A stretch of DNA of 21,920 bases from a virus, in the IMG/VR virus record IMGVR_UViG_3300046006_004907, positions 1-21,920 of that record. One strand, 5' to 3'. Shown here piece by piece: positions 179-19,243 of this stretch. Under the pieces are notes generated by a model. It was given only the letters and a program-made list of their open reading frames with translations. It ran no database searches and was not told the DNA's origin. Position 1 is the first letter of the stretch, and every line of letters starts with the position of its first letter. The translations under genes were made by a program, and so were the position numbers.

Positions 179-207
179 ATTATACTATATGGAATTAGAT
201 TCGTCAA
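179..207 (-). promoter_or_regulatory. Early sigma70-type promoter
   Basis: On the minus strand, -35 TTGACG (207-202), a 17-base spacer and -10 TATAAT (184-179). It points to the membrane-protein gene starting at 147. It shares the extended upstream GC (GCTTGAC) with the other early promoters in this window. It lies inside the 3' end of the GIY-YIG gene 185-607. Confidence 0.8.
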
Positions 208-607
208 GCATTATTTTATATTTTGTTAGGTGACGACGTGTTACTTTCACTGATATCCAATTATTATAATAGGTTGAGTCTATTAGTACGTTGTTGATGA
301 ACTGATAATAGGCTTCCAAGTAAGAGAGTTGAGACTTGGAATGACAAATTTCCAATATCTCTTTCTTTAATTCTGGGTTATTTGTTTTTATATCAGTATT
401 TAAATCGTCGTTGGATCCGGTGTATGTTCTCCAATCGGATTCAACCTTTACTTTTTTCTTTTTTAAATTCTTCTGGATAGTTTTACTAAAATGGAAAACT
501 TTTTTACCAATATATTTTTTGTTATTTTGGGTGTTGGTAATTAGATAAACAAACCCAATTGCTTTTTCTGGGGGAGCAGTTAATGGTTCGTTGTAGTAAA
601 GCCACAT
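185..607 (-). CDS. GIY-YIG homing endonuclease (Seg-like)
   Basis: 140 residues. The N-terminus carries the GIY-YIG signature: FVYLITN at about residues 19-25, then KKYIGKK at about 30-36. A WRTYTGSN motif follows near residue 59, as in phage Seg-type free-standing endonucleases, which cut DNA of related phages and spread their own gene. Start ATG at 607 has an AGGT ribosome site about 10 bases upstream. No zinc finger or NUMOD module is visible, so this is a minimal form. Its end overlaps an early promoter serving the next gene. The nuclease family is well supported; target and activity are unknown. Confidence 0.8.
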   Translation of the reverse strand: MWLYYNEPLTAPPEKAIGFVYLITNTQNNKKYIGKKVFHFSKTIQKNLKKKKVKVESDWRTYTGSNDDLNTDIKTNNPELKKEILEICHSKSQLSYLEAYYQFINNVLIDSTYYNNWISVKVTRRHLTKYKIMLDESNSI

Positions 608-3954: not shown

Positions 3955-4782
3955 TTAACCTCCTTCATTTATAAAATGTAAACAAAATTTGTGTTCTACC
4001 CAAGTTTTATCAAAAGATAGTATTTTTTTATACAATACATCTATTAAATCTATTTTATCTTCAAATAATAATTTCCTGTCAGAAAAACCTTTAGATATAT
4101 TCATATTATGCGGAATAAATTGTAAATTAGCGGGATGCCGTAATAACTGATATGGTATTTTAAATTCATACCCAATATTTCTAGGTAAAATATGATCCCT
4201 AACCCAACCATTTGTATTATTTCTATTAAATATACCAAATAAAGTTAATTGTTCTTGTTCATATTCAGAAAAATATTCTATCATTGAACAAATCCAATTT
4301 GCATCTTCGTAATATATTTTATATGGATCTTTGTCGATTAATGGAATCCAATAACCAAGTTTTTCCATTGTTTGTCTATGATTTTGTTTATATTCTTCGG
4401 TAAACTTTTCTTTAGATCTTATTCCTATTATAATTTTACTGTCGGAAGTATGTTTTCTAGAATAACTTTCTGAAGTTCTATGATCGTGCATCTTAGATAC
4501 TTTTTCTTTAGAAAATTTTTTGCCTCTATTCGCTGAGCCAGCTTTATACCTCATTTCTTCAGATTCAAATCTTTTCTTAGATATTTCTGACCCCATTCTT
4601 CGCTGTTCTTCGTTCCATTTATTATTAAAATTTGGATTATTTTCTCCAGAAAATAATACTTTTTGATGTAAATCTTTACATCGCCTACAACAATAATTAT
4701 TAGGTTTAACTTGTTTTTTATATTTTAAATATTCTATATTACAATAAGAACAATTTATAATAATTTTTGAATTCCCTCTCAT
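3955..4782 (-). CDS. HNH homing endonuclease with zinc finger and NUMOD3-like segment
   Basis: 275 residues. The N-terminus has a Cys-rich finger: CSYC at about 11-14 and CCRRC at about 31-35. SGENNPNFNNKW near residue 45 and the following basic 'SEISKKR' and 'SANRGKKFS' segments match NUMOD3-type DNA-binding modules. The HNH core is WVRDHILPRNIGYEF near residue 194, then HPANLQFIPHNMNISKG. Such proteins cut related phage genomes to spread the gene. ATG 4782 follows AAGGAAAA. The gene's last codons contain the GGAGGT ribosome site for the damaged metallophosphatase. An early promoter (4816-4844) drives it. Confidence 0.9.
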   Translation of the reverse strand: MRGNSKIIINCSYCNIEYLKYKKQVKPNNYCCRRCKDLHQKVLFSGENNPNFNNKWNEEQRRMGSEISKKRFESEEMRYKAGSANRGKKFSKEKVSKMHDHRTSESYSRKHTSDSKIIIGIRSKEKFTEEYKQNHRQTMEKLGYWIPLIDKDPYKIYYEDANWICSMIEYFSEYEQEQLTLFGIFNRNNTNGWVRDHILPRNIGYEFKIPYQLLRHPANLQFIPHNMNISKGFSDRKLLFEDKIDLIDVLYKKILSFDKTWVEHKFCLHFINEGG

Positions 4783-4895: not shown

Positions 4896-6707
4896 ATGTT
4901 AAGATTTAAATCTTTCCTAACTGAAGCAAAAGAAAACAGTAAAGCTGGCGCAGCCGCAAATACTAATGGAGTCAGACATGAATTAATGTCTCTAGGTGTT
5001 ATGAATCATATGGCAAGACATCATGGAGCAATAAAACGTAAATCTGGTAAAGAATATCCAAATTTACTTAAAATGAATCATGACGAGTTACGACATTTTT
5101 ACGATAACCATATTGCTACTGCAAATTTTAATGAGGAAATGCCAGAACATTTTAGAGATAAAGACGGACAAAGACCTCATCAAGTATTTCATCAACATAA
5201 TCATAAAATAGAGCATGATGAATTATTTAATCATTTTAAAAATTCAGTAGAACATGTAAATAAATTACATCATCATTTAAGAGAACAAGGCTTAAATCCA
5301 GAAACTTTACATAATATTTCATGGACATCTAAAGATGGTGATGCTAACGAATTTATGAAAAAACATGGTGATAATAAAAATCGTCAACAAAACAAAGATG
5401 GTGACGATTTTGATGGAATGGCATCAATTAAAGATAAAGATGGAAATACAAAACACGTTGGTATTTCAATGAAATGGGGTTCCAAAAAAGGAGCAAAACC
5501 AACATTAAAAAATAATACGCATAATACTGTATTCGGTAAACAAAATAGAGGAGAATTATCTCCTGAATATCAAGATATTGCAGATAAATTTCATAATGAT
5601 TCGTCAAAACATATTGATAATTTTGTAGATAAAGTAAGAAATCATTATAGCCACGAATCTGATAATGCTAGAGGAAGAGAATATAGAGAACACGAAGATG
5701 CTGAAAAAGCAAAACCAGGATCTTCTCATCCAAATGTTCATAAAAAATTGCAAGCTGTTGAACAAGCTAATTTACAAAGAAATTCTAATGTAGCAAACGA
5801 ATTACACGGCGCATTATCGGAAATTAATAATAGAGAAACACAAAAAGGTTCAACAAAAGAAATTTCAAATTATATTAGAAGAAAAGCTTCGGTATCTTCT
5901 CCTGACGTGGTTCCTGTTAGAGCTGCAATGACGATTAATCCAAAAACTAATCAAGCAGATAGCCATCATTTCGAAGATCATTCTACACACTTAAATAATA
6001 TATTAGATAATACGCATCATTTTAATATATCAAAAGGTGGCGGAACGGTTCATATTGATGCACACGATAAAGATGGAAAGCATTTATATAGATTTAGTCA
6101 ATGGTCTAAAGCTGGTTCAAGAAAAATAGATAAAACGACAAAAGTATTGGTAAAACAAGAAGGACCAAAATCAGCTTTACATGAAAAACCTACAGACAAA
6201 GTTACAGCTACCGCTCCAAAAAAAGCGTCAACTAAAAAAACAACTACACCGAAAAAGGAAAAAAAAGTGAATCCAGCAAAAGATAACCCGCATTGGGATG
6301 AAAAAGCTATTGGCGAAATGTTAGATAATGTCTTGGGTAACAATTTAGTCGAATCAACTGATTCATTTAAAGCTGTTTTATCAAGTAAAATCGCATCTAG
6401 ATTACTTGAAGCTAAAAAAGCAGTTTATTCTGAAAGATATGACAAAGATTTAGATAAAAACAAAAATGGTAAATTAGACTCTGACGATTTTAAAAAACTA
6501 AGAGCTAAAAAATATACCAATAAATGCGATACTGCATGTAATGAAGAAGCGATTGAAGATGCATTAAATGAAGTTTTAAATCCTTCTATGGGCGTAAAAG
6601 CATATATAGATGATTTCATAAAATCAGATGACTCTAGATTCGAAGGCGACTCTAAAGAAAAACGCCGTCAAAGAGCTATTGCAGCATTTTATAACGACAA
6701 AAACTAA
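4896..6707 (+). CDS. Capsid-targeted internal protein with nuclease-like and EF-hand segments
   Basis: 603 residues. The N-terminus MLRFKSFLTE|A resembles the capsid-targeting peptide of T4 internal proteins, ending in the L-x-E site cut by the gp21-type prohead protease. Residues about 25-215 have many His-rich helices and then DGDDFDGMASI (168-178) and GISMKWGSKKGA (189-200). That D...I-S-x-K spacing could be a PD-(D/E)XK-type nuclease centre; this is inference. A low-complexity Lys/Thr linker covers about 435-465. Residues 472-508 match a module in the next gene. Residues 520-531 (DKNKNGKLDSDD) form a good EF-hand or dockerin-type calcium loop. The C-terminus has a DFIKSDDSRFEG...KRRQRAIAAFY tail seen in other phage structural proteins. 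AAAGGA precedes ATG 4896. It is likely packaged and injected with the DNA. Confidence 0.75.
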   Translation: MLRFKSFLTEAKENSKAGAAANTNGVRHELMSLGVMNHMARHHGAIKRKSGKEYPNLLKMNHDELRHFYDNHIATANFNEEMPEHFRDKDGQRPHQVFHQHNHKIEHDELFNHFKNSVEHVNKLHHHLREQGLNPETLHNISWTSKDGDANEFMKKHGDNKNRQQNKDGDDFDGMASIKDKDGNTKHVGISMKWGSKKGAKPTLKNNTHNTVFGKQNRGELSPEYQDIADKFHNDSSKHIDNFVDKVRNHYSHESDNARGREYREHEDAEKAKPGSSHPNVHKKLQAVEQANLQRNSNVANELHGALSEINNRETQKGSTKEISNYIRRKASVSSPDVVPVRAAMTINPKTNQADSHHFEDHSTHLNNILDNTHHFNISKGGGTVHIDAHDKDGKHLYRFSQWSKAGSRKIDKTTKVLVKQEGPKSALHEKPTDKVTATAPKKASTKKTTTPKKEKKVNPAKDNPHWDEKAIGEMLDNVLGNNLVESTDSFKAVLSSKIASRLLEAKKAVYSERYDKDLDKNKNGKLDSDDFKKLRAKKYTNKCDTACNEEAIEDALNEVLNPSMGVKAYIDDFIKSDDSRFEGDSKEKRRQRAIAAFYNDKN

Positions 6708-6754: not shown

Positions 6755-7816
6755 ATGAGTAATTTATACAACGACCCAGATGATTTTGACCTAGATGAAG
6801 ATGATTTCGAGGAAGAAGAAGAATTAGAAGAAGGTTCTGGTCCATACGAACTACATAATCCAAAACACCCTAAATTCAAAGCAAACTATGATAAGTTTAT
6901 GAAAAAGAATCCTGATTCTTCATTAAAAGACTTTATTAACGCACAAAAAGCTAAAGAATATAAAGGTGGAGTCGAAGAAGCATATACAGGTAGTTATGGT
7001 CGCCCTAAAAAACAGAAAAAAGATGAATTAGGTGATTTATTGCGTTTAAGAGCGCAGGAACGCAAAGATGCCGGCGAACCACCAGAAAAACATGATGCTC
7101 GTTATCTTGCTAGAAACAAACCTGCAACTCGTCGTTCTGGTCAAGAACATGATGATATGCAAGTAACAAGAGAATCTATTCAAGGTATGATTGAAACTAT
7201 CTTATCAGGTAATTTAGTTGAATCTACACAATCATTTACTGATATTATCTCGTCTAAAATTGCAGCCAGATTAGAAGAATCTAAAATTGGTGTTGCTCAA
7301 CGAGTATTTGGTATTCAAGAATCACACGACGATGATGATGACAATGATCATGATGATTACAGCAAAACAATTAGTAAAATGAAAAAACCAAAAGAAGATG
7401 ATGATTATAAAGATGAAAAACATGCTGAAGTAGATGATGATTCATTTAGTAAATCTCTTCATGGAAAATTAAAAACAGCTGAAGATATTGATGATAATCC
7501 ATTATCTGATGATGAAAAAGAAAATCCTGATGACAAAAGAGTTCAAGCTGGATTAGCAGCTCGTGCAGCTAAAGGTGAAATGTCAAAACCAAATGCTCAC
7601 AGAGATATTGATTTAAGACAAGGATCTGTTACTCTTCAACATGGCGATGCAAAAAGAATTAATAGCTTTATGGCTGGATTAAAACCACAAAAAAGACAAG
7701 AAGTTATGGCTCACATGCAAAAATCACCTAAACATTTTGACGCGGTTCATGATGTAGTTAAAAAGTTCCCCGCACCAAAACAAAATACATCAATCTATAA
7801 AGATCCAAGATCTTAA
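6755..7816 (+). CDS. Acidic head-core-like protein sharing a module with its upstream neighbour
   Basis: 353 residues. Residues 1-27 are extremely acidic and end in ELEEG, a possible prohead-protease site. Residues 142-178 (IQGMIETILSG, NLVESTQSF, SSKIAARLEE) match residues 472-508 of the 603-residue protein just upstream. The module looks like the helical segments of T4-like head-core or scaffold proteins. Two Asp-rich patches (191-201 and 215-230) flank further helices. The C-terminal part (about 265-353) is basic and helical. ATG 6755 follows AAGGAAA, and a late promoter and a terminator bracket the gene. A head-associated role is inferred; no enzyme motif is visible. Confidence 0.7.
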   Translation: MSNLYNDPDDFDLDEDDFEEEEELEEGSGPYELHNPKHPKFKANYDKFMKKNPDSSLKDFINAQKAKEYKGGVEEAYTGSYGRPKKQKKDELGDLLRLRAQERKDAGEPPEKHDARYLARNKPATRRSGQEHDDMQVTRESIQGMIETILSGNLVESTQSFTDIISSKIAARLEESKIGVAQRVFGIQESHDDDDDNDHDDYSKTISKMKKPKEDDDYKDEKHAEVDDDSFSKSLHGKLKTAEDIDDNPLSDDEKENPDDKRVQAGLAARAAKGEMSKPNAHRDIDLRQGSVTLQHGDAKRINSFMAGLKPQKRQEVMAHMQKSPKHFDAVHDVVKKFPAPKQNTSIYKDPRS

Positions 7817-9545: not shown

Positions 9546-9897
9546 CGTCTTCTGTTACCATGTTTATTAAATCTTCATACATTGTATTGGCAAGTTCACT
9601 TGATGTTTTTGTTTTCTTACAAATCGTTCCAAAGAATCCGCTTTTAAGTAAATTTGCAATATAATGATGCGGATTACCTAAAATTGCTTCAAACATATCA
9701 GGTTCTACTACATCCCCGTCAATTGTTTCTTTATATGTTATAATATGATACTTAAATCCTAATTCATGTTTTTCAATTGGTTGAGCATTATCTTTATATG
9801 TAAATGCTGAAATATCTAATTGTTCATTCTCATCTAAGATAAACATAAAACCATCATGTATTTCTTCATCATAAATTTCTTTTAAGTAGTGTTTCAT
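9526..9897 (-). CDS. Hypothetical phage protein
   Basis: 123 residues, acidic, with a mixed alpha/beta pattern: MFILDENEQLDIS near 18 and YHIITYKETIDGDV near 50, then a helical second half (LLKSGFFGTICKK). AGGA precedes ATG 9897. No family is recognised. Its start region faces the plus-strand HNH gene at 9949. Confidence 0.6.
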   Translation of the reverse strand: MKHYLKEIYDEEIHDGFMFILDENEQLDISAFTYKDNAQPIEKHELGFKYHIITYKETIDGDVVEPDMFEAILGNPHHYIANLLKSGFFGTICKKTKTSSELANTMYEDLINMVTEDDEYASA

Positions 9898-9948
9898 AAG
9901 AATCCTATTTTATGTTGTTATAGATATATTTATTTTAAATGCAAAACT

Positions 9949-10272
9949 ATGGAATATAAAATAAAACCACCGGAAATTAAACAGATCTATAATAACTTAA
10001 AATCATCAGCTAAAAAAAGAAATATAAATTTTACATTAACTTTATCTGAGTTAAATAATATAAGTTTTCCAATTTCTTGCCCTGTGTTGAATATACCGTT
10101 AAAATGGCATAGAAACAAACCTCAAGATGATAGTTATAGTTTCGATAGAATTGATAGTTCGAAAGGATACGAAATAGATAATCTACTAATTATATCAGTA
10201 AAAGCTAATCGAGCTAAAAATAATTTATCCGAAGAAGAAATAACTAAATTTTGTAACTATTATAAAAATTAA
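9949..10272 (+). CDS. Small HNH/endonuclease VII-like protein
   Basis: 107 residues from ATG 9949. The frame is open further upstream, but those residues overlap the divergent gene's start. The middle has SCPVLNIPLKW (about 43-53) and then SYSFDRIDSSKGYEIDNLLIIS and KANRAKNNLS. This 'CPV.G..L....S.DRID..KGY..dN..viS..AN..K' signature is widespread in phage HNH-type endonucleases of the endonuclease VII style. The ribosome site is poor. It is the only plus-strand gene in a minus-strand block (9099-10928), as expected for an inserted mobile nuclease. Its stop overlaps the stop of a minus-strand small gene. Confidence 0.75.
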   Translation: MEYKIKPPEIKQIYNNLKSSAKKRNINFTLTLSELNNISFPISCPVLNIPLKWHRNKPQDDSYSFDRIDSSKGYEIDNLLIISVKANRAKNNLSEEEITKFCNYYKN

Positions 10273-11077: not shown

Positions 11078-11731
11078 ATGAGTATTTATAAGTATTGTGT
11101 ATATCTTACAATTTATTACGGGAATAAATTACCGCCTTTCTATATTGGATCATCTTCGTTAACTAACATAGCAAAAGGTTATAATGGATCTGTATGTTCT
11201 ATAAAATATAAAGATATATGGAAATCAGAACGAAAAATAAATCCAGCATTATTTAAAACTAAAATAATTTCAACGCATTATACACGAAAAGAAGCATATT
11301 GCAAAGAAGAAAAAATTCAAAAACAATTAAATGTAGTTAAATCGCCTTTATATATTAATTGTTCGTTTGCAATAGAAAGATTCGATAATACAGGTATATC
11401 ATTATCTGTAGAACATAAATTAAAATTATCAAACGTAGCAAAAGGAATACCTAAGTCAGAACTAACGAAATTAAGGATGAAAAAACCTAAAACTGCTGAA
11501 CATAATAAAAAAGTATCGTTAGCTAAACAATCAATGACTCCAGTAATATGCCCGCATTGTTTATTGTCTGGAAATAAAGCAGTAATGACAAGGTTTCATT
11601 TTACTAACTGTAAACAAAACCCAAAATATAATAAAAATGATATACTAACATGCCCGCATTGTAATAAACAAGGTCGCGGAAATATGACAAGATACCATTT
11701 TAATAATTGTAAAAAAAGAAAAGGGGCTTAA
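11078..11731 (+). CDS. GIY-YIG homing endonuclease next to pmoC
   Basis: 217 residues. An N-terminal GIY-YIG domain is recognisable as YCVYLTIYYG then PPFYIGSSS (about 6-28). A NUMOD3-like basic module follows at about 110-140 (SVEHKLKLSNVAKG, SELTKLRMKKP). The C-terminus carries two Cys/His fingers of the type CPHC...MTRxHFxNC (about 158-178 and 192-211), which phage endonucleases use to bind DNA. It converges on pmoC: its stop is 18 bases from the pmoC stop, with a shared terminator between. It could cut intronless pmoC alleles and so carry the intron along, but this is inference. AAGGAG precedes ATG 11078. Confidence 0.9.
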   Translation: MSIYKYCVYLTIYYGNKLPPFYIGSSSLTNIAKGYNGSVCSIKYKDIWKSERKINPALFKTKIISTHYTRKEAYCKEEKIQKQLNVVKSPLYINCSFAIERFDNTGISLSVEHKLKLSNVAKGIPKSELTKLRMKKPKTAEHNKKVSLAKQSMTPVICPHCLLSGNKAVMTRFHFTNCKQNPKYNKNDILTCPHCNKQGRGNMTRYHFNNCKKRKGA

Positions 11732-11741
11732 GCCCCTTTTC
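11718..11741. terminator. Bidirectional terminator between the GIY-YIG gene and pmoC
   Basis: A perfect 24-base palindrome: GAAAAGGGGC and GCCCCTTTTC arms around a TTAA centre, with A-runs and T-runs on both sides. It overlaps the GIY-YIG stop and terminates both convergent transcripts. Confidence 0.9.
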
Positions 11742-11749
11742 TTTATCGA

Positions 11750-11888
11750 TTAAACTAAATCGTTTTTCAATAATTTAGAAATAGCTTGTACTTCGATATT
11801 TACTACACCTAATACACCAAGCGCAGCCCATCCAAAAAATACAAACCCATAATGCAAAGGAGCAACAAATAACTCCTCCATAAACCAG
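11750..11888 (-). CDS. pmoC: pmoC exon 2 (C-terminus of particulate methane monooxygenase subunit C)
   Basis: 139 bases reading, after splicing, from the last base of codon 205 through W206-F-M-E-E-L-F-V-A-P-L-H217, then a membrane helix HYGFVFFGWAALGVLGVV, a short tail ISKLLKNDLV and TAA. The WFMEELFVAPLH block is near-invariant in PmoC. H217 corresponds to H245 of Methylococcus capsulatus (Bath), the third CuD ligand. It has no start codon or ribosome site of its own, so it only makes sense joined to exon 1 (12138-12751). The tail is shorter than in bacterial PmoC. Exons 1 and 2 together total 753 bases, 250 residues. Confidence 0.92.
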
Positions 11889-12137
11889 CCTATGTTCATA
11901 TAAGTTCGTTACACTTATATCGTTCTCTTATGAACTGCTAACTGTTCCCAGTTAGAGCAGACTATCTCATCAACCACGTGGGTTGCCCTGCGCTTCCACT
12001 CACTTGAGTGTACTTCCTTTCGGAATAGTCGTTACACCTTCCTATTTCTAGGCTTGGCACGGTATTGTCCGTTCTGGATGTTCACCGTTTTCACAGAGTT
12101 CTCATCATTATATTGCTATAATGAGCTTCCTGTTTTG
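11889..12137 (-). ncRNA. Group I (IA-like) self-splicing intron in pmoC
   Basis: 249 nt on the minus strand. P1: exon end CUUU plus intron base C pairs with internal guide GGAAG (intron nt 8-12), placing the required U-G wobble exactly at the 5' splice site. P10: exon-2 CUG pairs with intron CAG (nt 6-8). The last intron base is G. The core is complete: P2 capped by GCAA, P3 (CUCUGUG/CGCAGGG), P4 (CGGU/ACCG), P5 (UCC/GGA), P6a (CCUA-GAAA-UAGG), P7 (GACUAU at 12030-12025 with AUAGUC at 11965-11960), P7.1 (UCC-GAAA-GGA), P7.2 (CACUC/GAGUG), P8 (CAACC/GGUUG) and P9 (CUAACUG-GGAA-CAGUUAG). P7.1 and P7.2 point to subgroup IA, as in T4 td. It has no internal ORF. Read through, it adds six residues and a TAG at 12118-12116. 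Confidence 0.93.
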
Positions 12138-12751
12138 AAAGTATGACCCCATTCATTCAAACCTACGTTTGGAAGAATCATAAAAGGACCAATTACAGAT
12201 ACCAAATATTGTAATGGTAATCCTTTTTGATAGGTTGGTAAACGAGTTTTAGCGTATAAGAATGAAGCTACACCAGTAATAATATAAATTGGGTAACTTA
12301 GATAAAACTCAATAACGTGACTTGGAGTAAAATCAGTGTCACGAACGATTGTTTGATGCCATGTACCATCTTGTTCAGTAAAATATGAAGCACCATAATA
12401 AATTGCAATACCATACATTACTAACCATACCCAATGAGTAAAATGACGTCTCAATTCTTCTCTAGGGGTAATTGACATTACTTTACGATCGCGAGTCTTC
12501 CAGATATAACCCCACAACACTGATGCAGTTAATACCTCAAGTACCATCTCAATATAAAGGAAATTCATCCAATATGTTTCAAACTCTGGAGCAAATGAAT
12601 CTAAACCAGCTGACCATCCATATACACCCTCATACCAACGAACCCAACCATAAAATACAATATACAAAGCTGCGCCTAACAACATATTTCTTTTGTTTAA
12701 AAGCGGTGCTTCTGCAACTTCTGCTTTTACTGTTTCAACTGTAGCTGACAT
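12138..12751 (-). CDS. pmoC: pmoC exon 1, particulate methane monooxygenase subunit C
   Basis: Encodes residues 1-205 of a 250-residue PmoC, the inner-membrane subunit of the copper enzyme that oxidises methane to methanol. EGVYGWSAGLDSF (41-53) and FAPEFETYWMNF (53-64) are PmoC hallmarks. By alignment with M. capsulatus (Bath), offset 28, D128, H132 and H145 match the CuC ligands D156, H160 and H173; N199 and H203 match the CuD ligands N227 and H231. About six membrane helices precede the junction. AGGAG precedes ATG 12751, and a late promoter lies 70 bases upstream. pmoA and pmoB are absent here, so the product must join host subunits. Phage-borne pmoC is known from freshwater phages; the intron is the novelty. 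The closest sequence by recall is gammaproteobacterial. Confidence 0.96.
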
Positions 12752-12862: not shown

Positions 12863-13711
12863 TCAAAATTCGTCAATGACTTCTAATAATCGAGTTAGCT
12901 TTTTTTCGATAAAATACTTCATCAACATCTGTTTTGAACCTGTTTTTGGAGCTTCATACTGTTCAACGATGGCATCTTTGATATCCTGGGGAGTCATAGT
13001 CAAATCAATTAATAATTTATTTCTCTGAATATTACGATAATTTTCAATATCTGGATTATTAAAATCTTCAGTTAACATAACAGCTTTTTTCTTAGCTGTT
13101 AAAGGTTTCTGACGAATACCCGCAACAAATACATCATCATTAGATAATACCGATGGAATACCATCTCCAGCATCACCAGTTAATATTTTTTCCTTTAACT
13201 CTAATTGAGGGTTTTCTGATTTAACATAAATACCTAACATTGGATTATACTGTTTAACATTAGAATATTGATGTAATTGTTTAAAATCGCCATCAGAACT
13301 AATTATAATTACAGTTTCATGAGCACTAATTCTAGGAACTAATGTACCAATTACATCATCAGCTTCAGCTCGCTCAACATGCACCACTTTATACGGAAAA
13401 ATAATTTTTAAATCTTCGCGAACTTCATCAAGCACTTCAAAAATAACAGTCCAGTCTAATTTAGATGCTTCTCGTGCTTTTTTTCTTCCTGCTTTATAGA
13501 ATGGAAATACTTCTTTTCTCCAGTATTTTCTGGAGTCGCAGCAGATAATTACTTCACCATATTCTTTTTTAAATTTATGTATATGCGATCTAATCGAGTT
13601 TAAAACTAGGTGCCGACATAAATCTTTACTTAAAACATTAATTCTATTTGATGCAACTTGAGATTGCAATCCACTAATTACTACTTGGTGGAAATCAATA
13701 AGTATAGCCAT
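12863..13711 (-). CDS. rnh: RNase H, T4-type 5' nuclease (FEN-1 family)
   Basis: 282 residues from ATG 13711, preceded by AGGA. The frame is open for 24 more codons upstream, but those are AT-rich promoter sequence. In T4 this enzyme removes RNA primers and adjacent DNA from lagging-strand fragments. Visible metal-site motifs: LIDFHQ at about 4-9, CDSRKYWRKEVFPFYKAGR near 72-90, RAEADDVIG near 135-143, SSDGDFKQL near 155-163 and GDAGDGIPSV near 200-209 (helix-hairpin-helix). T4 RNase H has 305 residues, so this is a typical, slightly short member. An early promoter (13755-13783) drives it. Confidence 0.92.
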   Translation of the reverse strand: MAILIDFHQVVISGLQSQVASNRINVLSKDLCRHLVLNSIRSHIHKFKKEYGEVIICCDSRKYWRKEVFPFYKAGRKKAREASKLDWTVIFEVLDEVREDLKIIFPYKVVHVERAEADDVIGTLVPRISAHETVIIISSDGDFKQLHQYSNVKQYNPMLGIYVKSENPQLELKEKILTGDAGDGIPSVLSNDDVFVAGIRQKPLTAKKKAVMLTEDFNNPDIENYRNIQRNKLLIDLTMTPQDIKDAIVEQYEAPKTGSKQMLMKYFIEKKLTRLLEVIDEF

Positions 13712-13744
13712 GACAAAAAATCCTATATTAAAAATATTAATTAC

Positions 13745-13752
13745 TATAAATA
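13745..13752 (+). promoter_or_regulatory. T4-type late promoter (plus)
   Basis: Exact TATAAATA about 104 bases before the GIY-YIG start at 13856. It interleaves with the minus-strand early promoter of rnh. Confidence 0.65.
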
Positions 13753-13754
13753 AA

Positions 13755-13783
13755 ATTATACTATAAAAGTAGTATAAAGTCAA
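13755..13783 (-). promoter_or_regulatory. Early sigma70-type promoter for rnh
   Basis: Minus-strand TTGACT (13783-13778), 17 bases, TATAAT (13760-13755), a near-perfect host-type promoter 44 bases before the rnh start. Confidence 0.85.
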
Positions 13784-13855: not shown

Positions 13856-14599
13856 ATGCCCAGCACAAATACTTATACAAAACAAAAATCTTTTTACGTT
13901 TACGCCTATCTCAGATCAAAAGATTCAATAACTGCAAAAGCAGGAACTCCATATTATATTGGAAAAGGTCAAGGAAAACGGGCATATGCAAAACATGGAA
14001 GAATAAAATTACCAAAAGATAAATCGTTAATTATTGTTATAGAATCAAATCTCACCGAAACTGGCGCTTTTGCTATTGAACGAAGATTAATTCGTTGGCA
14101 TGGCAGAAAAGATCTAGGAACTGGAATTCTTTTAAATCTAACTGACGGCGGCGAAGGAGGTTCAGGTAAAGTATTTACTGATGAATATAAATTACAAAAT
14201 TGTATTGGAGAAAATAATCCTAATTGGAATAATAGGTGGTCAGATAAAAGAAAATTAGAATTCTCATTAAAAATATCTGGAGATAAAAGTCATAATAAAA
14301 ATAAAGTCTGGATAAATAACGGAATAATTAATAATAAAATACACAAAAATGAACAAATACCTACTGGATGGATTTATGGTAAATTAAATTTAAAAAATTA
14401 TCAATATACTTGGATCACAAATAATATAATTAATATTCAAATAGGCAAAGATGATCAAATACCAGATGGGTTTAACCTTGGAACAACAAATAAAAAACAT
14501 AAAAAGAAAGATTTATTTTTGTGCAATATTAAAAATAAAAAAGAATATGATATATGTGTAGCAAGTAGAGTTTTCCCAGACTTAAAGCATTTATTCTAA
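13856..14599 (+). CDS. GIY-YIG homing endonuclease between rnh and a capsid-targeted gene
   Basis: 247 residues. The GIY-YIG domain is FYVYAYLRS (about 13-21) and [15 protein letters not shown] (about 30-44), with R at about 77 and E at about 76 ([11 protein letters not shown]) as in the active family. GGEGGSGK follows near 99. A NUMOD3-like NNPNWNNRW lies near 120. Two copies of a WINNGIIN...IPTGW / WITNNIIN...IPDGF repeat lie at about 151-169 and 186-208, of the kind used to grip DNA in Seg-type endonucleases. CAGGAG precedes ATG 13856. It lies between divergent promoter modules at 13745-13783 and 14603-14640, as if inserted there. Confidence 0.9.
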
Positions 14600-15882: not shown

Positions 15883-16068
15883 TTACCCGAATAATAATTC
15901 AGAAACAGATTTAATTTGAACTCCGTTCTCAGTAACTACTCCGTTTACCACCTTACCCGTAGATAAAGTACAAACAATAGTATCATTACTAATAGTTTCA
16001 TTAATCATCACGGTAGAAAATCTACCCTGTAATTCTGACATCTCTTTTGGCGTTAAATTTACACTCAT
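15883..16068 (-). CDS. Small hypothetical protein downstream of topoisomerase
   Basis: 61 residues. ATG 16068 overlaps the gp52-like stop as ATGA, with GGAG just upstream, so it is coupled to topoisomerase translation. The sequence is beta-type (VCTLSTGKVVNGVVTENGVQIKS), like a small barrel. No family recognised. It could bind or regulate the topoisomerase, but only its position suggests so. Confidence 0.65.
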   Translation of the reverse strand: MSVNLTPKEMSELQGRFSTVMINETISNDTIVCTLSTGKVVNGVVTENGVQIKSVSELLFG

Positions 16069-17372
16069 ATTTGCTCCAATTCTTTTGCGTATAATACAAT
16101 ATTTGTTGTTTCTTGCAACTCAACCTTTTGCTCAACCAAAGATTTAACCTTTTGCTCTAACTCGATAATTCTATCGCCAGTTAAATTCCAAATTTTCATA
16201 TCTAATAATTTACTGTCAAAATTATTTTCTTCTAAAATACTAAATAATTCAATCTTAGAAGCATTTTTAAATTTATTAACATTACCTAGATAAAAATAGA
16301 TAAATCTTACTCGTTCATTTAAATCAATAATATCATTATCAAGGATTTCAATTAATTTATTAATTCTATCTGTATATTTACCTAAACGCCAATCGATAAA
16401 ATAATCAATAATTTCATTAACCGATCCAAACTTTCTTAATTTACCAGTAGGCAACCAACAGGTTAAATTCTCTGTTACTGTTGTAACTAACTTTAATTTT
16501 TCAAGAATAGTATCATCCTCCAGCGAATTAAGAATTCCGCGCTGATAAAATACATCAATATCAAACCCTTCTTCCGTTGAATTATCTTCATAATCTTTAA
16601 TAGAATTATTCTCTACTAATTTATTAAGCTGTTTCTTAATATCATCAAGATACATTCCTACTGGTAATTCAGTAATCTTTACCTGTGTAGCATTAATTCT
16701 AGAGATAGAACCCTTGATTTGATACTTATTATCATCAAGTCGAGTTACGCTACCTTTAAATCCGCGAAAATGTGGTAATAATTGAAATTTCTTTGAACTT
16801 CCAGAGAGTTTAGCTTTAATATACTTTGCAAGTTCCTTTGGATCTCTTGAGAGGATCGTAGAAGCAAAACCCGTACCTATTCCTAGCGAGTTGTTTAAAA
16901 GCACTCCAGGGAGGATTGGAACGAAAAAATTAGGCTCTATTTTAAAGTCATCCTCGAATAAATGTTCTAAGATAATATCATCTTCTTTACGAAAATATAA
17001 TCTAAAATTTTTCGATAATTTAGTAAAAATATATCGAGCAGCTGCAGGAACAGGTGATAATCTTGAACCAAACTGACCAATGGGATCTAACCAGTTTAAG
17101 TTATTGGATCCAGTAAAGTCTTGAGCTAGATTACAAATAACCCCAGCTATTCCTTGTTCTCCATGATGATATTGTGTTTCATAAGCAACAGAAGATGCTA
17201 ATTGCGCAACTTTCATTTCAGAATTAACATTCTTTAATAAACATGTATAAAGAACTTTTCTTTGAGTAATCTTTAATCCATCAATTAAATTAACGATTGA
17301 CCGTTCGTTATCATAATTGGCATATGGTTTGTATTGTTCCTGAAATAATCTTTCAATTGTAATTTCTTTCAT
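16065..17372 (-). CDS. 52: DNA topoisomerase II, medium subunit (gp52-like)
   Basis: 435 residues; T4 gp52 has 442. This GyrA/ParC-type subunit makes the double-strand break. The catalytic tyrosine is Y114 in PAAARYIFTK, preceded by IGQFGSRLSPVPAAARY; other marks are DGLKITQRKVLY (31-42), YHHGEQ (68-73) and NFFVPILPGVLLNNSLGIGTGF (about 148-169). A helical C-terminal coiled-coil region follows, without the beta-propeller of gyrase. It starts two bases after the large subunit's stop, with AAGGA upstream, in a single operon. In T4 this enzyme supports DNA replication. Confidence 0.95.
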   Translation of the reverse strand: MKEITIERLFQEQYKPYANYDNERSIVNLIDGLKITQRKVLYTCLLKNVNSEMKVAQLASSVAYETQYHHGEQGIAGVICNLAQDFTGSNNLNWLDPIGQFGSRLSPVPAAARYIFTKLSKNFRLYFRKEDDIILEHLFEDDFKIEPNFFVPILPGVLLNNSLGIGTGFASTILSRDPKELAKYIKAKLSGSSKKFQLLPHFRGFKGSVTRLDDNKYQIKGSISRINATQVKITELPVGMYLDDIKKQLNKLVENNSIKDYEDNSTEEGFDIDVFYQRGILNSLEDDTILEKLKLVTTVTENLTCWLPTGKLRKFGSVNEIIDYFIDWRLGKYTDRINKLIEILDNDIIDLNERVRFIYFYLGNVNKFKNASKIELFSILEENNFDSKLLDMKIWNLTGDRIIELEQKVKSLVEQKVELQETTNIVLYAKELEQI

Positions 17373-17374
17373 AA

Positions 17375-19243
17375 TTATCCTTCAATATTCAACCATTGTT
17401 TTCTTTTATCAGCGCTACCAGTATCTTTAGAAAATTGTAATGTAAAAATATCCACATCACCAATTTCACTAACAACTTTTTCCAAATTACCAGATAAATC
17501 CGTTAGATACTCTTTCCACTCTTTACTAGAACTAGTTCCTAATCCTTTGTAATATTTTGACTCATATTTTTCGTTAACATGTTTTTCTTTCCATTTCTCA
17601 AATAATGTCAAATCATGAAAAGATAATGTATCTTTTTTATACTTAACCTTGACAATTGGTGTATTTAAAATATGGATAATACCCAAGGAAAATAATTCTG
17701 GCCAAAATTTATAAAAAGCATTTAACAATAGTCCACGAATACCAAACCCATCTAAATCTTGGTCTGTTGATAATACAATTTTACCAAATCGAATATCTTC
17801 AATAGAATTTACCTTAACCCCAAACTGAAGCCCAGTAATTGTCATAATATTTTTAAACTCTCTATTTTCAAGAATATCTTTTAATTCCATTGGCATTACA
17901 TTTATGGGTTTGCCACGTAGCGGAAATGCAGCCATTGTCTTTGGATCTCTACCTGATAATAAACCAGATAAAGCTGAATCTCCTTCAGCAAGAAAAAGCA
18001 TTGCATCACTACGTTGTTTAGTAGAAGCATCATGGAATTTATCAACTCTTCTTGGATCGGCTTTATCTAAGTTCTTATTAGCTTTACGCAATTCAGCTAA
18101 TTCAGATGCTTTTTCTTTAGCTTGAACCCAGTCTAAAATAGACTGAATAATATCAGATTTTAATAAACCTTTAATAAATTTATCGCTAACAGTCCATGAA
18201 GTTTTCCATTCAGATGCAGGACTAATCATATTTTCTTTAGTTTGACTGGAAAATCTAGGGCGGTTAACAGTTCCTGCAATAAAAATTCTAAAATGATTTT
18301 TAATATCAGATGGTTTTACATCAACTTTATGTTTCTTTTTAAAATGTTCGCGTAACTTATTTGTTACTTGATCAACAACATAATTAACATGAGTTCCACC
18401 CTGATAGGTTTCTACTGAGTTAATAAAAGAAATTTGCTCAAATCCATCAGAATCGGTAATACCAACATTCCAATCTTTACTATTATCGGTAAAGTAATTA
18501 TCTGAATATAATGCAACATAATCGTCAAAAGATCTAAATCTAATTAATTCCCCATTAAAATAAAATTTAATGTTTAAGTTATTCGCAGCTGCATCTATTA
18601 CTTTTTTCTGAATTCGTAGAATATGGTCTGCATCTAACCCACTTAGTTTAAAAAATTCATAATCTGGAGTAAACGTAATTTTAGTTCCATTTTTAGTAAA
18701 ATCTTTAATTATAGGCTCGGAACGCTCGCGCATACCATTCCAGAAATCTTGCGTTAGTTTTTTCTTACCATCACAAGATTCAATCTTAAAATTTGTTGAT
18801 AAAACATTAGTCAACGTCGAACCAACACCATTAGTTCCAATTAGCGATTGGTCTTCATTATCGTTAAAATTAGAACCAGCTCTTAAATTTGAAAATACAG
18901 TTTCAGCGATATAAGTTCCTGTTTGTTCATGAAGAACTACTGGGATACCTCTTCCATCATCTTGAACAGAAATTTCATCAAAAGTTATATCTACTTTAAT
19001 TTGAGTTAATGTATCCGGTGCTCTTTTTCCTTCATCAATTGAATTATCGAGAATTTCAGAGAAGATTTTAATAAAAGCTGGGATATAAGAAATATCTCGC
19101 TTTTCCATTTTCTTTGTGGTGTTGTTTAGCACCCATTCTTGACTTGTTTGAACAGAAGTAGAACCGCAATACATGCCAGTTCGTTTTCTAATGTGTTCAA
19201 TCTCGTCAAGAACTTGATAAGTTTGTTGAATGTGTTTTGTCAT
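17375..19243 (-). CDS. 39: DNA topoisomerase II, large subunit (gp39/gp60 fused type)
   Basis: 622 residues. The GHKL ATPase motifs are EILDNSIDEG (about 64-73), DDGRGIPV (about 95-102) and GTNGVGSTLTN (about 136-146). The TOPRIM domain has LFLAEGDSALSGLLSG (about 411-426) and STDQDLDGFGIRGLL (about 491-505). The Lys-loop YYKGLGTSSSKEW lies at about 560-572. T4 splits this protein into genes 39 (516 residues) and 60; here it is one continuous frame, as in many relatives, with no bypass element. Start ATG 19243 follows an early promoter with overlapping late-type sequences. Confidence 0.95.
   Translation of the reverse strand: MTKHIQQTYQVLDEIEHIRKRTGMYCGSTSVQTSQEWVLNNTTKKMEKRDISYIPAFIKIFSEILDNSIDEGKRAPDTLTQIKVDITFDEISVQDDGRGIPVVLHEQTGTYIAETVFSNLRAGSNFNDNEDQSLIGTNGVGSTLTNVLSTNFKIESCDGKKKLTQDFWNGMRERSEPIIKDFTKNGTKITFTPDYEFFKLSGLDADHILRIQKKVIDAAANNLNIKFYFNGELIRFRSFDDYVALYSDNYFTDNSKDWNVGITDSDGFEQISFINSVETYQGGTHVNYVVDQVTNKLREHFKKKHKVDVKPSDIKNHFRIFIAGTVNRPRFSSQTKENMISPASEWKTSWTVSDKFIKGLLKSDIIQSILDWVQAKEKASELAELRKANKNLDKADPRRVDKFHDASTKQRSDAMLFLAEGDSALSGLLSGRDPKTMAAFPLRGKPINVMPMELKDILENREFKNIMTITGLQFGVKVNSIEDIRFGKIVLSTDQDLDGFGIRGLLLNAFYKFWPELFSLGIIHILNTPIVKVKYKKDTLSFHDLTLFEKWKEKHVNEKYESKYYKGLGTSSSKEWKEYLTDLSGNLEKVVSEIGDVDIFTLQFSKDTGSADKRKQWLNIEG

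Follow-up and report, generated by a model that had tools for sequence, protein, structure and literature searches.

A group I intron of 249 nt interrupts the pmoC gene of a phage contig and parts the codons for its copper ligands. Judged from its sequence, the intron very probably splices itself out of the transcript, and it spreads most likely with the help of a free-standing nuclease gene that adjoins pmoC. Phage pmoC is believed to influence methane oxidation in lakes. Should its transcripts depend on self-splicing, phage copies regarded as fragmented or truncated may in fact work, and the number of functional copies would have been underestimated. The pmoC introns are an independent parallel to the cyanophage psbA intron in another energy-metabolism gene, with homing elements settling in conserved active-site codons of host origin.

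The interrupted pmoC gene and its intron

The window, that is the whole stretch of 21,920 nucleotides analysed here, contains a minus-strand open reading frame (12751-12116) of 211 residues that matches the AmoC/PmoC family (Pfam PF04896, 1.2e-102). The C-terminus absent from this reading frame was found 249 nt further downstream on the same strand. Excision of 12137-11889 in silico gave a PmoC of 250 residues; over 249 of them it has 99.6% identity with the PmoC of the phage contig L002, which is uninterrupted, and residues 1-249 aligned with a solved PmoC chain (6cxh_C, 2e-156). An initial annotation, made from the letters of this DNA, had described a truncated pmoC restored by splicing to 250 residues with the frame kept. 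The Pfam match and the excision product bear out both points, and the break that it had placed between the second and third bases of the F205 codon was reproduced. By alignment with 1yew_C (offset 28), D128, H132 and H145 of the spliced product correspond to the CuC ligands Asp156, His160 and His173, and N199, H203 and H217 to the CuD ligands Asn227, His231 and His245, as these are given in PMC12576850 (CuD for PDB 7s4h). The family match and the presence of both ligand sets (D,H,H and N,H,H) identify the protein as PmoC. Entering codon 205 after its second base, the intron separates N199 and H203 from H217, as the initial annotation had also noted.

That annotation had called the spacer a group I intron and had named a covariance-model search as one of the checks. 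The Rfam model RF00028 scored 63.9 bits at 12148-11938 (cut-off 50, E 6.7e-16), and 63.9 bits again in a second search. Rfam run over the whole window at gathering level had given no match, presumably because of its fast filters; the intron was recovered when the scan was narrowed and, once more, with a second tool. Two junctions restore the peptide, and just one of them, 12137-11889, has U before the intron and G at its end. At this junction the end of exon 1 (CUUU) pairs with the internal guide to form P1 with U·G at the splice site, the start of exon 2 pairs with the P10 strand, and helices P3 to P9.2, including P7, P7.1, P7.2 and P8, are paired in the intron (Table 1). All of these features, namely the P1 wobble pair, P10, the core helices and the final G, had been proposed initially and were recovered. 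Group I membership is given by the core P3-P8 with the guanosine-site helix P7, whose pairs covary over 12 introns (see below); the window intron has both the P1 U·G at its 5' site and G as its last base. P7.1 and P7.2 lie between P7 and P3, which we take to be a sign of the IA type. A large reading frame is absent from the intron. The same site holds an identical intron in L009 and introns of 94.8% identity in L005 and L006, so the window intron is not one odd assembly, and an assembly artefact was thereby ruled out. The interruption of the window pmoC is real, and the group I reading is sound in its essentials.

A terminator-like hairpin with a T run lies 3' of pmoC, near where the convergent nuclease gene ends; it comes from a consensus scan that found two such elements in comparison with 0.8 expected in shuffles. 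The sequence TATAAATA upstream of pmoC was set aside, as it occurs 10 times in the window with 6.7 expected, and 12 of 100 shuffles reach 10. A T4-type RNase H gene and genes for two topoisomerase subunits (12863-13783 and 16065-19243) indicate a T4-like phage.

Table 1. Features of the window (positions on its numbering) and insertion sites of introns in phage pmoC (numbered by residue).
Feature	Position	Strand	Details
pmoC exon 1	12138..12751	-	614 nt; codons 1-204 plus the first two bases of 205
pmoC exon 2	11750..11888	-	139 nt including stop codon; from the third base of codon 205 through residue 250
Exon junction after predicted splicing			CATACTTT followed by CTGG
Group I intron	11889..12137	-	249 nt; starts CAAAACAGG, ends AACATAGG; RF00028
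Internal guide, P1 strand GAAG	12126..12129	-	pairs with exon 1 end CUUU, U·G at junction
P10 strand CAG	12130..12132	-	pairs with exon 2 start CUG at 11888-11886
P7 5' strand GACUA	12026..12030	-	partner UAGUC at 11964-11960
Terminator-like hairpin and T run	11719..11739	-	3' of pmoC; consensus scan only
Homing-endonuclease-like gene	11078..11731	+	217 aa, convergent with pmoC; PHROGs phrog_10820 2.5e-24, phrog_314 5.1e-22
Block differing from sisters L002, L003, L004	10986..12140		intron, exon 2, tail, nuclease gene; flanks nearly the same
SegE GIY-YIG	185-607		Pfam
Endonuclease phrog_3322	9889-10272		PHROGs
Weaker nuclease-like matches	13856-14599 and 3955-4782		PHROGs
Insertion site after G45			L041
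Insertion site after G129			L043
Insertion site after G202			L039
Insertion site in F205			window, L009, L005, L006
Insertion site in F207			L038, L039
Insertion site after A214			L016, L039
Insertion site in F220			L010, L013
Insertion site after G224			L038, L039

Group I introns across phage pmoC

A scan of viral contigs with the exon 1 protein yielded 47 pmoC records, 48 including the window. Further viral scans, each giving at most the best 80 of 112-119 relatives, added at least three records of the close kind (L063/L321, L375 and L390); L375 and L390 match PmoC uninterrupted, and L063 had no group I match. Among the 48 records, 12 had RF00028 matches above the cut-off, 18 in total, and one further match fell below it. 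Of the 18, 15 are inside pmoC (11 records), a gene that makes up about 1.4% of the 2.51 Mb. In seven of the other 37 records (L018, L026, L042, L044, L045, L047 and L048) pmoC is cut short or damaged. With identical introns merged (L009 with the window, L006 with L005, L013 with L010), there are eight alleles with 12 distinct introns, which are 249-261 nt long and occupy eight insertion sites. The comparison with other phage pmoC genes suggested by the initial annotation thus found its site occupied in four records and seven further sites elsewhere.

Two introns are present in the pmoC of L038 and four in that of L039. The four of L039 fall within 22 codons, with exons of 13, 23 and 30 nt between them; once the introns are removed, the product is a complete PmoC. 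At the start of the L039 contig, some 900 nt have a raised G+C of 0.53 (0.58 in exon 1, against 0.42 for pmoC otherwise) and contain bacterial-looking ORFs. Exon 1 of L039 may for this reason have been joined on chimerically; all four introns lie beyond the suspected join, in sequence that continues into phage genes. Residues around the insertion sites are more conserved than those at random sites (0.98 versus 0.84, p 0.0004), and six of the eight sites are inside 23 codons (p 0.0004). Introns at different pmoC sites are related to one another; the intron tree gives firm support only to two main lineages and to one same-site pair.

The shared structure was assessed on an alignment of the 12 introns, over 60 pairs of P2-P9.2 including P7. 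Paired cells amounted to 98.4% of 708, versus 74.8% in shuffles, a figure favoured by the drawing of the structure on one of the 12 sequences. Changes on both sides were seen in 46 of the 60 pairs, with a covariation of 0.660 versus 0.203 in shuffled and at most 0.111 in slid alignments. RNAalifold, run unaided, proposed 66 pairs, 52 of them with changes on both sides and the P10 pairs among them. P1 with the junction U·G is present in 12/12 introns, at 4-5 bp (mean 4.08 bp), while exons of other sites placed at the same guide average 2.04 bp. A P1 of 4 bp alone is not rare, being reached by 20 of 124 swapped exon-guide pairs at the same guide and by 36 of 124 with a free guide. P10 measures at least 3 bp in 10 of the 12 introns, 1 bp in L016 and 0 in L043. 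In 11 of the 12, exactly one peptide-restoring junction has U before the intron and G at its end; the exception is the first intron of L039, which ends in A, so that none of its junctions obeys this rule.

Group I matches outside pmoC were seen in L281 (8670-8874), L285 (10181-10374) and L288 (2420-2622); on reading, a nuclease-like ORF adjoins the first, and the second has an endolysin-like ORF nearby. In L042 the damaged pmoC (around 5600-5660) ends right after A214, which is an insertion point, and a guide-like GGGCGC comes next; a decayed intron was rejected there, as no group I match was obtained at that place. Among the more distant viral pmoC/amoC-like records, 0/48 searched had a group I match (one of these, L063, is of the close kind). 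A second large viral set (L088-L127, L208-L255) carries pmoC/amoC-type genes about 60% identical to that of the window, and those searched gave no group I match.

On the bacterial side, pmoC was uninterrupted in the best 80 of 317 relatives, a ranking that favours intact genes. All 80 genes examined are 33-38/40 identical to the phage empty site over the 40-nt insertion site. A group I match was found in none of 12 bacterial genomes and in 10 of 301 genomes from the order of a Methylobacter genome, under strict filters that lose weak matches. Eight of these ten have pmoC/amoC, and in none of the eight are intron and gene close together (G255 has both on one contig, at a distance of 1.26 Mb). 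A bacterial origin of the pmoC intron was rejected: pmoC is uninterrupted in these best 80 relatives, and in the eight genomes that have both, the group I match does not lie near the gene.

Probable use of the interrupted gene

Over codons 206-245, exon 2 of the window differs from that of L002 by 14 synonymous and 1 non-synonymous substitutions (pS 0.54, pN 0.011) and from that of L005 by 11 and 0, respectively; exons 2-5 of L039 differ from those of L038 by 25 and 3. On these substitution counts, exon 2 of the window is under purifying selection. Selection that extends past stop codons, together with exons too short for proteins, fits splicing best. In the precursor RNA, P1 would present the 5' splice site and guanosine would attack after exon 1; with P10 and the final G the exons would be joined, giving the 250-residue PmoC with its copper ligands.

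Alternatively, the gene could be split or decaying, with the truncated 211-residue PmoC being made and exon 2 left as a relic or separately translated from an in-frame ATG. Purifying selection on exon 2 speaks against a relic, and we reject that reading. Separate translation can point to an in-frame ATG just before exon 2, near the 3' end of the intron, with counterparts in L041 and L043, but the 13-, 23- and 30-nt exons of L039 cannot be separate proteins, and a split gene would have no need of a covarying ribozyme core and a P1 at the junction. Taken as a whole, a split or decaying gene is very improbable. Its other support comes from Chen et al. (2020), in whose available text the pmoC of four large freshwater phages is 'fragmented into two pieces'; in LR_6 the non-coding region between the pieces is transcribed at a low level and the C-terminal piece is less expressed (PMC7674155). 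As far as that text describes them, these phages resemble the window in having a stand-alone pmoC in two pieces around a non-coding spacer, and the words 'intron' and 'homing' are absent from the main text of the paper. Group I introns may account for such fragmented genes, with the spacers as putative introns. An intron would explain the low spacer signal of LR_6, not the low C-terminal signal as there reported; the latter is not predicted by plain splicing and counts against it.

If splicing takes place, it could also be conditional and serve as a switch for PmoC production in infection, responding for example to copper, methane or stage. The precedent is the psbA intron of cyanophage S-PM2d, whose splicing is reported to be light-dependent (PMC5931967). 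A sign of regulation is absent from the present sequence data, and a switch is not needed, because sister phages keep pmoC without an intron. We therefore hold a regulatory role to be quite unlikely and keep to plain self-splicing as the preferred reading.

No report of a pmoC intron was found in one open-access library (bioRxiv and most subscription papers lie outside it), which agrees with the statement of the initial annotation that none was described; in the available passages on phage pmoC in PMC10904782 and PMC9875498, the word 'intron' is absent.

The adjoining nuclease gene and possible exchange of the pmoC 3' end

Three observations go beyond the initial annotation, namely the adjacent homing-endonuclease-like gene, the block replacement relative to intronless sisters and the seven additional insertion sites. 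The 217-residue protein encoded next to the window pmoC has a GIY-YIG-like motif, recognised by eye, and Cys/His pairs at its C-terminus. It matched no Pfam family at 0.001. Its structure prediction is of low confidence (pLDDT 58), and this model had no significant fold match, with I-TevI third at E 0.49. The pmoC neighbour in L039 matches PF01541 at 4.8e-5. A homing-endonuclease-like gene adjoins pmoC in seven of the eight intron-bearing alleles, downstream in the window, L005, L010, L038, L039 and L043 and upstream in L041 (a weak match, 0.0023). The neighbouring nuclease of L005 is 68% identical to that of the window, and both phage lineages share the window insertion site. In L016 the intron is unaccompanied by a nuclease-like neighbour; in L040 and L046 such a neighbour adjoins an intronless pmoC. 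Thirty complete intronless loci were examined, 29 of them with enough flank. Nuclease-like genes made up 2 of 14 clusters of downstream neighbours (L040 and L046) and 0 of 13 clusters of upstream neighbours; clusters were judged by reading, and Pfam was run on L040 and L046 only. The association of 7/8 versus 2/14 gives a Fisher p of 0.0015 with clusters taken as independent. A 249-nt intron devoid of a nuclease gene next to a free-standing nuclease gene adjoining the same pmoC is the layout of collaborative homing.

Window exon 1 differs from that of each of L002, L003 and L004 by two substitutions (99.7% identity), one of them 3 nt before the intron. After exon 1 the window has the intron and an exon 2 with 13-17 substitutions, followed by a tail of unrelated sequence and by the nuclease gene, which is missing from the intronless sisters L002-L004; the sequences are close again from +1766. 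Window exon 2 is 90.8% identical to that of L005, 91.7% to that of L010 and 87.5% to that of the sister L002. Between L005 and L010, identity is 96-100% in the sequence upstream of pmoC, and 85-100% in exon 1 to +600 and again beyond +1700; intron and nuclease, which lie in between, differ. Repeated homing with co-conversion would leave both the L005/L010 pattern and the pattern between the window and its sisters; the events and their direction are what we infer from these comparisons. The nuclease encoded downstream would cleave an intronless pmoC close to where the intron inserts; the break, repaired with an intron-bearing phage as template, would take up the intron, exon 2 and the nuclease gene together, and the intron would shield its own pmoC from the nuclease.

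The intron could instead splice while the nuclease gene has no part in its spread, which would then be due to reverse splicing or to recombination of phages infecting the same cell. L016 carries its intron with no nuclease neighbour, introns at different pmoC sites are related, and nuclease-like genes are common in these phages, with several in the window (Table 1), of which those at 9889 and 13856 are also present in the intronless sisters. The association of 7/8 versus 2/14 runs against such independence, as do the presence of related nucleases, 68% identical, in both phage lineages that share the window site and the block difference from the sisters, which covers intron and nuclease gene alike. 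We consider an unrelated nuclease gene unlikely and favour spread assisted by it.

A wider and tentative proposal, doubtful as it stands, is that the pmoC 3' end is an exchange slot, in which competing cassettes of intron and nuclease replace each other and accumulate to as many as four introns in the course of phage-phage competition. Under it the nucleases may also cut host pmoC, whose insertion site is 33-38/40 identical to the phage empty site in the 80 bacterial genes, and conditional splicing may let a ribozyme set the PmoC output of the infected methanotroph.

The mechanism is of a known kind, and what is unusual is the density of insertion sites in one metabolic gene. The comparisons that follow hold for the parts of the cited papers that were available. 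The psbA group I intron and the free-standing F-CphI of cyanophage S-PM2 are the described case of 'collaborative homing' (PMC6083498, PMC3984707). Common to both systems is a phage gene of energy metabolism, derived from the host, that carries a group I intron and has a free-standing nuclease gene beside it; they differ in the gene itself, in the eight insertion sites of pmoC versus one described for psbA, and in the nucleases, mostly GIY-YIG-like or HNH for pmoC whereas F-CphI has an Endo VII motif, the pmoC pair being predicted from sequence. Several group I introns in one phage gene are likewise reported for Twort orf142 and for the DNA polymerase and terminase genes of Bastillevirinae, at most three per gene and with an extra small exon found in one multi-intron phage gene (PMC11878797); the pmoC of L039, on a contig with a bacterial-looking start, has four. 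In PhiPA3, gp210 is an intron endonuclease aimed, by experiment, at the intronless RNA polymerase gene of a competitor (PMC11620839). It shares with the present case a nuclease linked to a phage group I intron, but lies inside the intron, whereas the pmoC nuclease lies outside and is predicted from sequence.

One intronless locus has a second piece of pmoC. In L046 a complete intronless pmoC (5808-6464) is followed by a GIY-YIG-like gene and, at 7139-7282, by a pmoC 3' fragment that gave no group I match. This fragment begins exactly at P215, the start of exon 2 for site 214, and is perhaps a relic of cassette exchange.
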